Origin: Pseudonocardia autotrophica
Lineage (GTDB): Bacteria; Actinomycetota; Actinomycetes; Mycobacteriales; Pseudonocardiaceae
Assembly: GCF_000717175.1 (NCBI RefSeq)
Contig: NZ_JNYD01000012.1
Location: forward strand, 186,001 to 250,000
Direction of reading: 5' to 3'
Length of the DNA: 64,000 nt
Part shown: positions 29,493-33,515 of the stretch, piece after piece
Position numbering within the stretch: position 1 is the first letter of the stretch
How the letters are laid out: every line of letters begins with the position of its first letter
The notes under the pieces: generated by a model
What the model saw: the letters and a program-made list of their open reading frames with translations, nothing else
The model's database searches: none
What the model was told of the DNA's origin: nothing
Made by a program: the position numbers and the translations under genes

Positions 29493-29696
29493 ATGGGTGT
29501 CCTCGGCGAGCTGTTCCCCGGTCCGAAGATCTCGGACGAGGCGGGCGAGTCCGGCAACGGCGAGACGTTCCGGCTGGGCCCCATCGACCTCGAGAACGGC
29601 GTGGTCCACGTCGTGCGGGCCGGTGGCGCCGAGGACGTGGGGACGGCGGTCGAGGGCGAGCCGGCGGACGCCCCCGCCGACGGGGACGGCGACTAG
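29493..29696 (+). CDS. Small acidic hypothetical protein
   Basis: 67 aa, 10 bp after fbiC on the same strand. It starts MGVLGELFPGPKISDE, continues with a short FRLGPIDLENGVVHV segment and ends in an acidic tail. The FPGPK then DL-x-x-GVV pattern recalls the C-terminal part of small actinobacterial DUF6191-type proteins, but I cannot assign it firmly. Its stop overlaps the last codons of the convergent diguanylate cyclase gene. Confidence 0.55.
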   Translation: MGVLGELFPGPKISDEAGESGNGETFRLGPIDLENGVVHVVRAGGAEDVGTAVEGEPADAPADGDGD

Positions 29697-31063
29697 GAGG
29701 CCTCGGGCTCCGCGCGCGGGGCCTCGGCGGCCTCCGGCTCCCGGCCGCTCTGCGGCGCCTCTCCGTGTGGTGCGGCGCCGTGCTGCGAGTGGTCGGCGAT
29801 CCGCACGGCGTTGCGGCCCGAGTCCTTGGCCCGGTAGAGCGCGCGGTCGGCGATGGCCATGGCCTGCTCGACGGTCGTGCTGGGCGCCCTGGGCACCATC
29901 GTGCCGCCCACCGAGATGCTGAGGTTGCGGATCGAGAGCGGCCCGTCCGGCGTGTCGACCGGCACGACCAGCGTGGTCACCCGCTGCCGGATCCGCTCCG
30001 CGACGGCGTGCAGCTCGGCGGCCGCGCGCTCCGCGGGCAGGCCGGGGAGCAGGACCACGAACTCCTCGCCGCCGAAGCGGCCCACCAGGTCGTCCCCCCG
30101 GACCTCGGCGCGCACGGCGTCGGCCACCGCGGCGAGCACGCGGTCGCCCGCGAGGTGCCCGTGGGTGTCGTTGACCTTCTTGAAGTGGTCCAGGTCGAGG
30201 ACCAGCATCGCGAGACTCGTGCGCTCCCGCCGGGCCCGAACCATCGCCTCACCGGCGCGGGCGTTCCACGCCGTGGCGGTGAGCAGGCCGGTCTTGCCGT
30301 CCGTGGTCGCGGCGTCGGCCAGCTCGCGGAACATGACCGCCCGCTGCAGCACCAGGATCGGCACGAACGCGAACAGCACGAACCACCAGGACACGGTGAG
30401 CGTGAGCGCGAGCATGGCGCCGAGGCAGAGCGTGGCGACCTCGACCGCCACGTCGTCGAGGTGGCCGAACAGGTCCGCGGGCTTGGCGTCGGGGTTGCTC
30501 GTGGCCACGGCCAGGGCGATGAGCAGCGAGTTGACCGCGGCGTAGACGAGCGTGGCGCAGGCGAGCGCCGCCAGCCCCGCGAGGCCCGTGGACCAGGCCT
30601 CCGACCCGCCGGTCCGCTCGACGACCTCCCGCGCGGCGACCGCCGCGAGCAGCACCGTCGACGTGGTGAAGGTGTGCCGGAACAGCGGGAACCGCGCCGG
30701 TTTCCACACCCGGAACCACAGGTACGTGTAGATCACCGTGATCGTGGTCGTGGCCAGCGCGGCCGGCAGGAGCAGCGCCGCGGCGAACGTCCAGATCGTG
30801 GAGAGGTCGGTGTACGACTTCTCGCCGACCCGGCGGCGGGCGCGCTCGACGCCGGTGGCCACCTCGGTGTGCACGATGCCCGACGCGGCCAGCACGAGCG
30901 CGAGAACGGCCGAACCGGCTGTGGGCCGAAGGGCGGACCAGGACAGGGCGAGGAGCACCAACGCCAGAGTCTCCACCACGGCGAGCATCGCGATCACCCG
31001 AGTGGGCTGGGCCCACACGGCCCAACGGGTGATCCCGCACCTCCGTCGAGGTGACTGCGCCAC
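29693..31063 (-). CDS. Membrane-bound diguanylate cyclase (GGDEF)
   Basis: 456 aa. The N-terminal ~250 residues hold about eight hydrophobic segments with no recognised ligand domain (MASE-like sensor). The GGDEF domain has VLDLDHFKKVNDTHGHLAGD and the active-site loop FGGEEF near residue 328. An RxxD inhibitory site (RGDD) lies five residues before it, so product inhibition by cyclic di-GMP is expected. A Pro/Glu-rich tail follows. It would synthesise c-di-GMP at the membrane. Transcribed away from the hexapeptide array. Confidence 0.92.
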   Translation of the reverse strand: MAQSPRRRCGITRWAVWAQPTRVIAMLAVVETLALVLLALSWSALRPTAGSAVLALVLAASGIVHTEVATGVERARRRVGEKSYTDLSTIWTFAAALLLPAALATTTITVIYTYLWFRVWKPARFPLFRHTFTTSTVLLAAVAAREVVERTGGSEAWSTGLAGLAALACATLVYAAVNSLLIALAVATSNPDAKPADLFGHLDDVAVEVATLCLGAMLALTLTVSWWFVLFAFVPILVLQRAVMFRELADAATTDGKTGLLTATAWNARAGEAMVRARRERTSLAMLVLDLDHFKKVNDTHGHLAGDRVLAAVADAVRAEVRGDDLVGRFGGEEFVVLLPGLPAERAAAELHAVAERIRQRVTTLVVPVDTPDGPLSIRNLSISVGGTMVPRAPSTTVEQAMAIADRALYRAKDSGRNAVRIADHSQHGAAPHGEAPQSGREPEAAEAPRAEPEAS

Positions 31064-31548
31064 GGGAGAGTCTCCTGTCCAGCCAAACTGGTGATGTCGG
31101 ACCTGAGCGTAGTCAAACGATCACTCGATCCGGATGCCCCGAAACGGTACCGAATCGCGTGTCTCGACTACTCTGGGTAACACACGCTGTGGGCTCGTCG
31201 GGCCCGGGCCGGGCGGCGGCGCGCCGCGACCGGGCGTACCCGCCTTCGCCGGCGGTCGTTGCCCGCAGTGTCGGAGCGCACCGGCCGCCGCGGTCCGGGA
31301 CCGCCGGTCACCGGTTGATCGCCGGAGCGGCCGCGGTCGTTACCGCCGGTCGGTGCGCGGGGAGGAGGGCGCCGTGCGCGACCGCGCAGGGTGGGACCCG
31401 AGACGACCCCGCGTGCCTGGTTCCCGATCGCACCCCGTGATGAACCGTTCCCTCCGTCCGTCCGTGACGCCGGGAGGGGTCCCGGGCACGATCCGACCTG
31501 GTGAGAGCCTCCGACGGGACGTACGGACCCGCAACCCGAGGAGTCGCG
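31064..31548. other. Intergenic leader region upstream of the MRNRAW array
   Basis: No ordinary gene is supported over 485 bp. The first ~110 bp are less GC-rich than the surroundings and probably hold divergent promoters for the cyclase gene and for the array; TACTCT near 31169 could be a -10, without a clear -35. A degenerate array copy starts at 31374. Near 31497-31505 CCTGGTGAG repeats the end of an array unit. Frames that stay open here in three directions have no consistent codon usage. Confidence 0.5.
31374..31394 (+). pseudogene. Degenerate copy of the MRNRAW unit
   Basis: After GGGGAGGAGG at 31359-31368 the frame reads GTG-CGC-GAC-CGC-GCA-GGG-TGG, which would encode MRDRAGW. It aligns with the array units at the start codon, both Arg codons, Ala and Trp, but the stop codon is missing and the frame continues to 31649. 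It looks like an eroded unit at the left end of the array. Confidence 0.4.
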
Positions 31549-31569
31549 ATGCGCAACCGCGCCTGGTGA
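31549..31569 (+). CDS. Hexapeptide MRNRAW, copy 1
   Basis: ATG-CGC-AAC-CGC-GCC-TGG-TGA, with GAGGAG at 31538-31543 and a 5-nt spacer. No known family is recognised. The nearest concept is a minimal precursor peptide or a leader/signal peptide. Confidence 0.75.
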   Translation: MRNRAW

Positions 31570-31628
31570 GCAAGAGCACACGAAACGTGAGCAACCCTCT
31601 TCGACGACGAGCCCGAGGGAGGCCCGAG

Positions 31629-31649
31629 ATGCGCAACCGCGCCTGGTGA
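31629..31649 (+). CDS. Hexapeptide MRNRAW, copy 2
   Basis: Same codons as copy 1 (CGC at codon 2), behind GAGGGAGG at 31615-31622 with a 6-nt spacer, the strongest Shine-Dalgarno of the array. The frame is also open upstream, but the initiation signals favour the short product. Confidence 0.78.
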   Translation: MRNRAW

Positions 31650-31694
31650 GCGGCAGTTCCGACCGAGACCCGACGAGCGACGAGGAGACCTGAC

Positions 31695-31715
31695 GTGCGT
31701 AACCGCGCCTGGTGA
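31695..31715 (+). CDS. Hexapeptide MRNRAW, copy 3 (GTG start)
   Basis: GTG-CGT-AAC-CGC-GCC-TGG-TGA behind GAGGAG at 31682-31687 with a 7-nt spacer. The swap of ATG for GTG, another legal start codon, is one of the two tolerated changes in the array and supports real translation. Confidence 0.75.
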   Translation: MRNRAW

Positions 31716-31756
31716 GACGAGCCGACCGAGACCCGACGACCACGAGGAGGCCCGAG

Positions 31757-31777
31757 ATGCGTAACCGCGCCTGGTGA
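31757..31777 (+). CDS. Hexapeptide MRNRAW, copy 4
   Basis: ATG start with the synonymous CGT at codon 2, behind GAGGAGG at 31744-31750 with a 6-nt spacer. Confidence 0.78.
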   Translation: MRNRAW

Positions 31778-31823
31778 GACGGCAAGCCCGACAAGGCCCT
31801 GAGCAGCGAGAAGGAGGCCGGAG

Positions 31824-31844
31824 ATGCGTAACCGCGCCTGGTGA
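31824..31844 (+). CDS. Hexapeptide MRNRAW, copy 5
   Basis: ATG start, CGT at codon 2, behind AAGGAGG at 31811-31817 with a 6-nt spacer. It is followed immediately by a 15-bp duplication of its last five codons (31845-31859) that has no start codon. Confidence 0.78.
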   Translation: MRNRAW

Positions 31845-31906
31845 AACCGCGCCTGGTGAGCACCGCACACCCGACAGCGACCCGACGAGCGAGGAAGAGA
31901 CCGCAG

Positions 31907-31927
31907 ATGCGCAACCGCGCCTGGTGA
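31907..31927 (+). CDS. Hexapeptide MRNRAW, copy 6
   Basis: ATG start with CGC at codon 2, behind GAGGAAGAG (31891-31899), a weaker Shine-Dalgarno than the others. It is the last unit; the repeat does not continue beyond 31927. Confidence 0.72.
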   Translation: MRNRAW

Positions 31928-32261
31928 CCCGGCCACCTCACGGACCAGCACCCCACAGACCCCATAAACCCCTCCACAGCCCGCTCCCGAAGCCCCCGTC
32001 GAGACCCCTGAACCCACCGGCCCGCGCCGCCCGCTCCCACTTCCGGGGGGCGCTCCCGGGCCGGCTCCGCACACCCGTCCGCGTGGAAAGGGGTGCGCGG
32101 TCCGACGTCCTGGAGCAGGCTGAGGCGACCGGTCACCGCCGAACGACGACCGCCCGCCGAGCGATCCGCCGGGACTCTCCGGCTCCGGTCGCTCACGTTC
32201 AGTATCGATCTACGGGCCCGGTGGACCGGGCGGTACGGGCGGCAGCCACCTCGGGGGGATC
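31928..32261. other. Intergenic region between the hexapeptide array and the MFS gene
   Basis: No gene is supported over 334 bp. The first ~60 bp are C/A-rich on this strand and almost free of G runs, then GC-rich sequence resumes. A 7-bp stem with a 2-nt centre (32216-32222 with 32225-32231) lies ~30 bp before the MFS start and may be an operator or hairpin. Confidence 0.45.
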
Positions 32262-33515
32262 GTGCGTCGGAGAGTCACGCGACCGAGCGTGTTCCGCACT
32301 GCGGAGTTCCGCGCCCTCTGGGCGGCGGAGCTCGTCTCGATCTGCGGCGACCAGCTCGCGCGCGTCGCGTTCTCCGTCCTCGTCTACGGCCGCACCGGCT
32401 CCGCGGCCTGGGCCGCGGCCGTCTACGCGCTGACCTTCCTGCCGGCGCTGCTCGGGGGTGTGCTGCTCGGCTGGGTGGCCGACCGCTTCCGCCGCCGCGA
32501 GGTCATGGTGCTGGCGGACGTCGCCCGCGCGCTGCTCGTCGTGCCCCTGGCGGTCCCCGGGATCCCGCTCGCGCTGCTCTGTCCGCTGCTGGTCCTGGTG
32601 GTGGTGCTGGCCTCCCCGCACACCGCGGCCCAGGGTGCGCTCCTGCCCGAGGTGCTCGACGGCGAGGAGCTGCTGGAACGCGGCTTCGCCGTCCGGCAGA
32701 TCACGAACCAGACCGCGCAGATCGCGGGGTTCGCCGTCGGCGGCGCCCTGTTGGTGCTGATCAGCCCGAGCGTCGCGATCCTGCTGAACTCCGCGACCTT
32801 CCTGCTCTCGGCGTTCTTCGTGCGGGTCGGCGTCCGCAGGCGCTCGGCACCCGCCGCCTCGGCCGACGGCGCCGGACCGGCCGCGCTGTCCTGGCTCGCC
32901 GACATCCGCGAGGGCGCGCGCACGGTCTTCGCACACTCCCGGCTGCGCACGCTGGCCCTCGCCGTGTGGCTGGTCGGCGGCTACGTCGCGCCCGAGGCCC
33001 TGGCCGTCCCCCTGGCCGACGAGCTCGGTGCCGGCCCCTGGGCGGTCGGGCTGCTCATGGCGGCCGACCCGGCGGGCAGCGTGCTGGGGGCGCTCGTGAT
33101 CAGCCGCTGGGTGCCCGAGCGGCTGCGGGAGCGGGCGATCCTGCCCTGCACCGCGCTGGCCGGGGTGCCCCTCGTGGCCTCGATGTTCGTGTCGAACGTC
33201 GCGGCCGTCGTGGTGCTGTGGGCGGTCACCGGGGCCCTGTGCACCGCGGCGCTCGTCCCGGCCCAGGCCGTGTTCGTCCGCACGACACCCGGCGAGGTGC
33301 GCGGCCGGGCCACCGGGCTGGCGGCGTCGGGCCTGATCGCGGCGCAGGGGCTCGCGATCCTGGTCTGCGGCCTGCTGGCCGAGCGGTGGGGCGCGCCCCT
33401 GGCCGTGGGGATCTGCGGGGCGGCGGGCGCGCTGCTCGCGAGCGCGCTGATGCTCACCCGCGGGGCGCGCGCCGAGCGAGCGCCGCACCGCGTGCGCGCG
33501 GCCCGGGAGGGATAG
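32262..33515 (+). CDS. MFS transporter (DHA3/EntS-like exporter)
   Basis: 417 aa from a GTG behind CGGGGGG. Twelve membrane segments in two halves; the loop after helix 2 reads GWVADRFRRREVM, the MFS motif A. The start FRTAEFRALWAAELVS is typical of the DHA3/EntS-like drug or siderophore exporters. It is the first ordinary gene after the hexapeptide array, on the same strand, so export of the peptide or of something derived from it is an attractive but untested idea. Confidence 0.88.
   Translation: MRRRVTRPSVFRTAEFRALWAAELVSICGDQLARVAFSVLVYGRTGSAAWAAAVYALTFLPALLGGVLLGWVADRFRRREVMVLADVARALLVVPLAVPGIPLALLCPLLVLVVVLASPHTAAQGALLPEVLDGEELLERGFAVRQITNQTAQIAGFAVGGALLVLISPSVAILLNSATFLLSAFFVRVGVRRRSAPAASADGAGPAALSWLADIREGARTVFAHSRLRTLALAVWLVGGYVAPEALAVPLADELGAGPWAVGLLMAADPAGSVLGALVISRWVPERLRERAILPCTALAGVPLVASMFVSNVAAVVVLWAVTGALCTAALVPAQAVFVRTTPGEVRGRATGLAASGLIAAQGLAILVCGLLAERWGAPLAVGICGAAGALLASALMLTRGARAERAPHRVRAAREG

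Follow-up and report, generated by a model that had tools for sequence, protein, structure and literature searches.

Peptide pheromones of Gram-positive bacteria, such as those of the RRNPP, ComX, Agr and SHP systems, are cut from longer precursors. Yeast precursors of the alpha-factor type carry many identical peptide copies in one protein, from which the copies are cut out. Biarylitides are made from precursor genes of five residues which are missed by gene callers and, in the motifs named in the available part of the source, start with MR- or MK- (PMC13417212). The locus described here lies in a 64,000-nucleotide (nt) stretch of Pseudonocardia autotrophica (family Pseudonocardiaceae; assembly GCF_000717175.1, contig NZ_JNYD01000012.1, positions 186,001 to 250,000), referred to below as the window. 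It is a tandem array of six micro-open reading frames (micro-ORFs), each of them encoding the hexapeptide MRNRAW, which stands beside a divergent gene for a membrane diguanylate cyclase with a GGDEF domain. Related arrays occupy the same divergent position next to one membrane GGDEF family in several actinobacterial families, and their peptides co-vary with the sensor half of the cyclase.

Like the biarylitide genes, each unit is a bare ORF of a few codons with an MR- start for a dedicated peptide. As described in the available part of that source, biarylitides have a dedicated cytochrome P450 and a biaryl bridge, whereas here there are 1-22 copies, no P450 was seen and the partner is a diguanylate cyclase (PMC13417212). 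The biarylitide precursor has two aromatic residues that are to be joined among its five; the peptides here differ from it in having six to eight codons, and MRNRAW contains one aromatic residue. As with the Gram-positive pheromones, a clade-specific short peptide is encoded beside its likely receptor and differing types coexist. Unlike them, each ORF is the whole peptide, with no longer precursor to be matured by proteolysis, each copy forms an ORF of its own, and a diguanylate cyclase would act as the receptor. Alpha-factor precursors likewise keep many identical copies together, but here every copy has its own Shine-Dalgarno (SD) sequence, start and stop. Signals read by a cyclic-di-GMP enzyme have precedents: the available part of a review on cyclic-di-GMP sensing names at least two direct receptors of quorum molecules, RpfR for Burkholderia diffusible signal factor (BDSF) and a dCACHE cyclase for autoinducer-2 (AI-2), whose ligands are small molecules, and in that part the word "peptide" appears once, for the clan of a periplasmic binding domain (PMC8846402). 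No description of such arrays was found in the open-licence PubMed Central (PMC) literature among the matches listed, and the text "MRNRAW" is absent from the open-licence PMC literature searched. On balance the module is judged to be categorically new, with a mechanism that would be one of signalling.

The MRNRAW array and selection on its peptide

The six 21-nt ORFs lie on the plus strand at 31549-31927, in the gap between the minus-strand cyclase gene (29693-31063) and a plus-strand gene for a major facilitator superfamily (MFS) transporter (32262-33515). Every one reads MRNRAW-stop and is preceded by an SD match of 4-7 nt, and the start-to-start spacings are 80, 66, 62, 67 and 83 nt. ATG starts are found in units 1 (31549..31569; SD GAGGAG), 2 (31629..31649; SD GGGAGG), 4 (31757..31777; SD GAGGAGG), 5 (31824..31844; SD AAGGAGG) and 6 (31907..31927; 4-nt SD match in GAGGAAGAG), while unit 3 (31695..31715; SD GAGGAG) begins with GTG and has CGT at codon 2. 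A preliminary description, made from the letters of the window alone, had reported six such ORFs with two variable positions, and both points were borne out: only base 1 (A/G; ATG or GTG) and base 6 (C/T; CGC or CGT) vary. Dinucleotide shuffles of 31064-32261 never yielded a 2- or 3-unit array (0/500), and a scan of both strands found this to be the sole array of repeated SD-preceded micro-ORFs in the window. The intergenic region between cyclase and array (31064-31548) is common to both genes and would be expected to hold both promoters; the sigma-70 consensus was not matched there, and the promoter and terminator consensus scan was empty.

Directly after unit 5 stands a stub of a further unit (31845-31859, plus strand), which consists of its last 15 nt without a start codon. 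Another assembly of the same species (G015) has at least nine units, with a run of N at the place matching this stub. Stub, higher count and N run together indicate that the window array is probably repeat-collapsed, so that six is probably an assembly undercount. Upstream, at about 31358-31400, a strong SD (GGGGAGGAGGGCGCC) is followed by GTG and then by a stretch (GTGCGCGACCGCGC...) that resembles a unit but has no stop where one would normally stand. This stretch is found at the same place in loci L034, L035 and L041 and in similar form in L038, covering several species, and it is possibly a decayed or different first unit.

Selection was assessed on 503 units from 67 arrays, located by DNA similarity alone, with each codon variant counted once per array. 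Frame-nested readings (prefixes such as MMRN, MVRN, MMRA, MTTP and MSKDL) and spacings below 45 nt were excluded, and the 503-unit test also drops three more rows of 70. Within arrays 89 codon variants were silent and 56 non-silent, where 29.4 ± 4.8 silent ones were expected (P 6e-27, nominal only, given the non-independence of related arrays). Among the variants from the eight MRNRAW arrays tested, 29 were silent and 14 non-silent. Changes at codon positions 1, 2 and 3 numbered 45, 26 and 102. Eleven within-array synonymous switches need at least two base changes (Ser AGC/TCC, Arg CGN/AGR), and 11 further codon changes of at least two bases are non-silent. The stop codon was missing at the stop position in 15 of the 503 units. 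The excess of silent variants shows, at the level of sequence comparison, that selection acts on the peptide's amino acids, as the preliminary description had suggested. Its statement that the spacers have diverged strongly holds across the 67 arrays of all species, in which adjacent units are 93% identical as against 48% in the 20 nt after the stop; in the window array divergence is milder, with 62-79% identity to a reference copy over 66-nt stretches spanning the unit.

A divergent membrane diguanylate cyclase beside the arrays

The preliminary description had named MFS, HxlR and trpS genes as the nearest neighbours; the divergent cyclase gene on the other side of the array was missed. Its product (29693-31063, minus strand) has a multi-helix N-terminal sensor at about residues 20-250 and a GGEEF domain at 252-418, with an RxxD inhibitory site upstream of the motif. 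The protein matches Pfam PF00990 (E 3.3e-36), and in an alignment of 67 sequences G332-E-E-F335, R322 and D325 are invariant and G331 is nearly so.

This GGDEF family is divergent and less than 900 nt away at 78 of the 81 arrays with flanks, a neighbour count restricted to arrays whose peptide contains W, RDN or SKDL or reads MRNWGF. The three exceptions are a contig end (L236), two intervening genes (L081) and a GGDEF gene at 1.9 kb (L245). Many loci were found via MFS or GGDEF, and those fetched by DNA pattern are the fair sample for a partner count: there the GGDEF gene is divergent at 20 of 21 arrays, counted from the same gene maps. Starting from the cyclase, 179 GGDEF genes of the family had at least 600 nt of upstream sequence (the genus portion pools loci from all discovery routes). 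Of these, 87 are preceded by an array of at least 2 units on the divergent strand and one by an array on the opposite strand, this single case being the complement of a real array. The constant neighbour of the arrays is the divergent GGDEF gene, not MFS, HxlR or trpS. The earlier suggestion of a link to HxlR or trpS did not hold up, as the outer neighbours of eight related MRNRAW arrays include trpS at five, fbiC at five and HxlR at two. At three loci (L092, L229, L232) two GGDEF-array modules with differing peptides (e.g., MRNHNW and MRGKQWG) follow one another, and these look as if they had been duplicated and then diverged in place.

The arrangement of the protein is like that of MASE-type cyclases, in which a multi-helix membrane sensor is followed by GGDEF. 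MASE9 (PF20972) itself matched 14 of 67 relatives at E up to 0.5 (best 4.1e-5) and gave no match to the window protein, and we know of no peptide ligand or micro-ORF array for MASE proteins. The AlphaFold2 model of the window cyclase has a predicted local distance difference test (pLDDT) score of 90.3. In this model the predicted fold of the sensor (residues 46-228) may resemble the ligand-binding subunits of energy-coupling factor (ECF) transporters, and its 15 best VIA-align matches are ECF S-components or the CbiM chain of the cobalt ECF transporter. Foldseek with the sensor alone found no significant match. Whole-model fold searches were discarded as a guide to sensor identity, having picked up the GGDEF domain instead. 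A fold of the S-component type would put the pocket on the outer face of the membrane.

Peptide variety and co-variation with the sensor

The MRNRAW pattern occurs in 9 of 62 Pseudonocardia genomes. A looser version of it matched 10 genomes among 390 from the family, the additional one belonging to another genus and having a lone unit but no array. Each of the nine has one array, between GGDEF and MFS genes, with 6, 9, 16, 8, 14, 9, 11, 6 and 14 matching units. As the preliminary description had proposed to look for, copy number varies (6-16) with the hexapeptide fixed. In genomes without MRNRAW, a de novo scan of MFS-relative loci revealed arrays of other peptides, namely MRNWNW, MRNHNW, MRNKSW, MRNKNW, MRNRSW, MRGKNW, MRNRTWI, MSKDWN, MGKDWN and MAKNWGW. 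Altogether, 54 of the 61 Pseudonocardia genomes examined (of 62) contain arrays of at least 2 units, and 44 contain at least 3 units. These arrays have 2-22 copies and 25 different main peptides, and nine of the genomes bear two or three arrays with differing peptides. One or two candidate units are present in 4 of the 7 array-less genomes. Lone candidate units such as MRNKDW, MRGKDW and MRDVHWG were also seen, and one unit may be the ancestral state. A plasmid of Pseudonocardia sp. DSM 110487 (NZ_CP080522.1, about 66275-66441; L251) carries a second module of four MRNHNW units with a divergent GGDEF gene, beside an MRGKNW module elsewhere in this genome; the gene table for this plasmid, which is incomplete, lists no feature over the array.

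Beyond the genus, the sensor half of the window GGDEF protein was searched against 390 genomes from the family, 20 from other genera and 148 from the class, with matches in 339 of the first set and in 20 of the last (own genome included). Arrays of at least 2 units were found upstream of 9 of 30 tested genes in other genera of the family, with peptides such as MRDKIW, MRSRDN, MANRDN and MSRSWDW, and upstream of 17 of 28 tested genes in other families, with peptides such as MRDNTWT, MRDTTWS, MRDNNWN, MRGNSWD, MRANSWD and MRGWKWS. A phylum-wide pattern of six codons with a required terminal Trp matched 2 of 396 genomes, the own genome and a 35-nt minisatellite. This requirement misses differently composed arrays, which the GGDEF-guided searches recovered. 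A pattern scan of named genomes returned, among the matches listed, mostly 7-nt minisatellites and is no measure of breadth; the clear arrays among these matches were L126 and L131 (Pseudonocardia) and L215 and L217 (same arrays as G027 and G047).

Several features of individual arrays were recorded. At locus L238 (G060) MRNHSWT is present in 16 copies with a strict period of 83-85 nt, as against the usual 60-67 nt. Residue 2 varies within arrays of other Pseudonocardiaceae genera (L320, L322 and L332: MRSRDN/MCSRDN/MGSRDN; MANRDN/MTNRDN; MRSKDL/MHSKDL/MCSKDL), unlike most Pseudonocardia arrays, although some MRNKSW/MSNKSW arrays likewise mix R and S. Repeated micro-ORF-like units with 57-68-nt spacing occur at L175, L198 and L222 (MPRGQW, MVRVVW and MVRLVW). 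Naive scans can be trapped by 7-nt minisatellites of unrelated bacteria, which read as overlapping ...GEW/GDW micro-ORFs (L107, L110, L111, L144, L154 and others).

Co-variation was analyzed on 109 readings, of which 101 had a full sensor, giving 99 modules (one per genome and peptide). Of their peptides, 82 have R as the second residue, 90 contain W and 83 have W as the sixth residue. Peptides were picked if they contained W or one of a few listed motifs; this may inflate how similar they are overall, but not how closely that similarity follows the sensor. Peptide similarity correlated with sensor-half identity at r 0.52 and with catalytic-half identity at 0.37. The partial correlation was 0.42 for the sensor given the catalytic half and -0.12 for the catalytic half given the sensor, and none of 1000 permutations reached the former (largest 0.18). 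Along the cyclase the signal lies at residues ~55-190 and more weakly at 15-46, and values for the catalytic domain are close to zero or negative. Single-column mutual information was rejected as a pointer to the binding site, its columns being scattered over both cyclase halves. At the 64 loci with an MFS gene, the sensor retained a partial correlation of 0.31 given catalytic half and MFS, as compared with 0.04 for MFS given both halves. Furthermore, in 18 genomes with at least two modules, 28 of the 38 modules had a peptide more similar to the one paired with the closest sensor from a different genome than to its fellow within the same genome; the reverse was seen in 3 of the 38, with 7 ties.

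Such co-variation, as read from the sequences, would be expected of a ligand-receptor pair. Non-synonymous change in relatives, which the preliminary description had held to speak against a selected peptide, does occur from clade to clade, and there peptide and cyclase sensor change in step; within arrays it is the minority (56/145).

A proposed peptide signal and its alternatives

The array would be a multi-copy gene that stands alone and encodes a bare hexapeptide, directly translated as (formyl-)MRNRAW, with one transcript that presumably starts in the shared intergenic region and carries all units. By the rule of methionine aminopeptidase, Met is kept when Arg follows, and it would be retained on such peptides. 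The neighbouring MFS protein likely moves the peptide across the membrane, where the membrane sensor of the divergent cyclase likely binds it, alters cyclase activity and thereby would set the cyclic-di-GMP level. With many copies, each initiated separately, more peptide would be made and neither a protease nor a leader would be needed, and distinct peptide and sensor types within one genome would serve as separate channels. Of the ideas in the preliminary description a signalling peptide fits best, and we lean towards a translated peptide that is likely moved by MFS and likely read by the GGDEF sensor; that the units are translated in the cell, that the peptide is exported and bound, and in which direction it shifts cyclic-di-GMP are inferred. 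More tentatively, and with less than even confidence, the modules may form a signalling system that extends across the actinobacterial class, with a pheromone ORF of 6-8 codons in up to 22 tandem copies, a naked formyl-Met peptide, dedicated MFS export and an S-component-like receptor-cyclase. This would be the first ribosomally encoded peptide ligand of cyclic-di-GMP signalling, with several orthogonal channels per genome and one on a plasmid.

Descent contributes to the co-variation, and comparison with catalytic domain and MFS corrects for it only in part. At GGDEF-found loci in other genera of the own family, MFS was within 1200 nt at 0 of 3 (one at 1340 nt), which slightly lowers confidence in the proposed signal.

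The part of MFS was only partly upheld. The transporter gene in the window (32262..33515, plus strand; Pfam MFS_1) is co-directional with the array and 335 nt downstream of it. An MFS gene lies less than 1200 nt downstream of 53 of the 81 arrays, which agrees with the link drawn in the preliminary description, but the link is not universal, and the gene is convergent in 45 of the 53; the eight co-directional cases are the MRNRAW clade. MFS counts are biased for loci L079-L098 and L225-L244, which were found through MFS, while L287-L306 and L364-L383 were found through GGDEF.

The strongest alternative keeps the peptide inside its producer, where it would act without export as a membrane-peripheral subunit or allosteric regulator of the cyclase, with copy number setting the dose and MFS unrelated. 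Consistent with this, 28 of the 81 arrays have no MFS within 1200 nt downstream, MFS identity adds nothing once the cyclase is accounted for (the partial correlation of 0.04), basic loops of the sensor suggest cytosolic contact, and a bare ORF has no space for a signal sequence. However, a convergent MFS follows the array in 13 of 13 GGDEF-found loci with flanks in other families (12 from one family), and a specific signal would be expected to be uniform inside arrays and to differ from clade to clade, as these peptides do. The pocket of an S-component-like fold would also face outwards. An intracellular regulator is considered unlikely, though it keeps real weight beside the exported signal.

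It was also asked whether the units are minimal precursors of ribosomally synthesized and post-translationally modified peptides (RiPPs), modified by enzymes encoded elsewhere, with a cyclase that only regulates or senses the product. Very short precursors do exist, as the five-residue biarylitides in the available part of their source attest (PMC13417212), and Trp is near-invariant among the 99 peptides. Nevertheless, no P450 was found among the five window neighbours, nor a P450 or modifying enzyme among nine representatives of recurrent neighbour families, single-locus neighbours being unscanned. The nine gave matches to glycosidase, PNPOx, HIT, DXS, MFS, lactonase and ThiF/nitroreductase, with two lacking a match. 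The cyclase is moreover the only near-universal partner. Such a role is very unlikely, and the biarylitide-like precursor of the preliminary description is not supported. At seven loci (L365, L366, L368-L371 and L373) a protein of 539-734 aa is encoded ~2.3-2.9 kb past the array; it is not a partner at other loci, and the L365 copy matches ThiF and Nitroreductase.

A leader or attenuator, in which ribosomes stalling on the units (at a drug-sensing R-x-R or at Trp before the stop) would control the downstream MFS or trpS, is scarcely credible. The window MFS is suitably placed and matched Tap and Mef models, below their cut-offs, and M-R-N-R resembles the macrolide-arrest motif. A co-directional gene directly downstream is found, by position, only in the MRNRAW clade; elsewhere an MFS, where near, is convergent, and some arrays have none nearby, which speaks against a general role as MFS leader and led to the macrolide-arrest idea being dropped. 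No gene is constant downstream on the array strand across the 81 arrays, and in many peptides, among them those ending in ...WN, ...WT, ...RDN and ...SKDL, there is no R-x-R or no Trp at the end. The Trp-codon sensor of the preliminary description fell with these findings, and Trp sensing via trpS was abandoned, as trpS is near only part of the MRNRAW clade.

Finally, a repeat that works as DNA or RNA, be it as binding sites, structured RNA or satellite, and has an incidental reading frame is most improbable: tandem units do share some spacer similarity, concerted evolution can give homogeneous copies and multi-base codon changes are equally often silent and non-silent, but the silent excess and the synonymous two-base switches, the retention of SD, start and stop while spacers change, the absence of Rfam families at gathering score from eight loci (with a chance-level match only in the window) and an array RNA less structured than its shuffles (z +1.93) all count against it.

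If the proposed signal is real, these modules would constitute a class of peptide signal that gene callers miss, and bare micro-ORF arrays could serve to set the dose of a peptide. Further cases could be sought by looking for divergent SD-micro-ORF repeats next to a gene for a sensor, and the peptide is short enough to be synthesized and added to cultures, which makes the central claim directly testable. A large group of orphan membrane diguanylate cyclases would thereby gain a ligand, and the input to actinobacterial cyclic-di-GMP signalling would become open to experiment.
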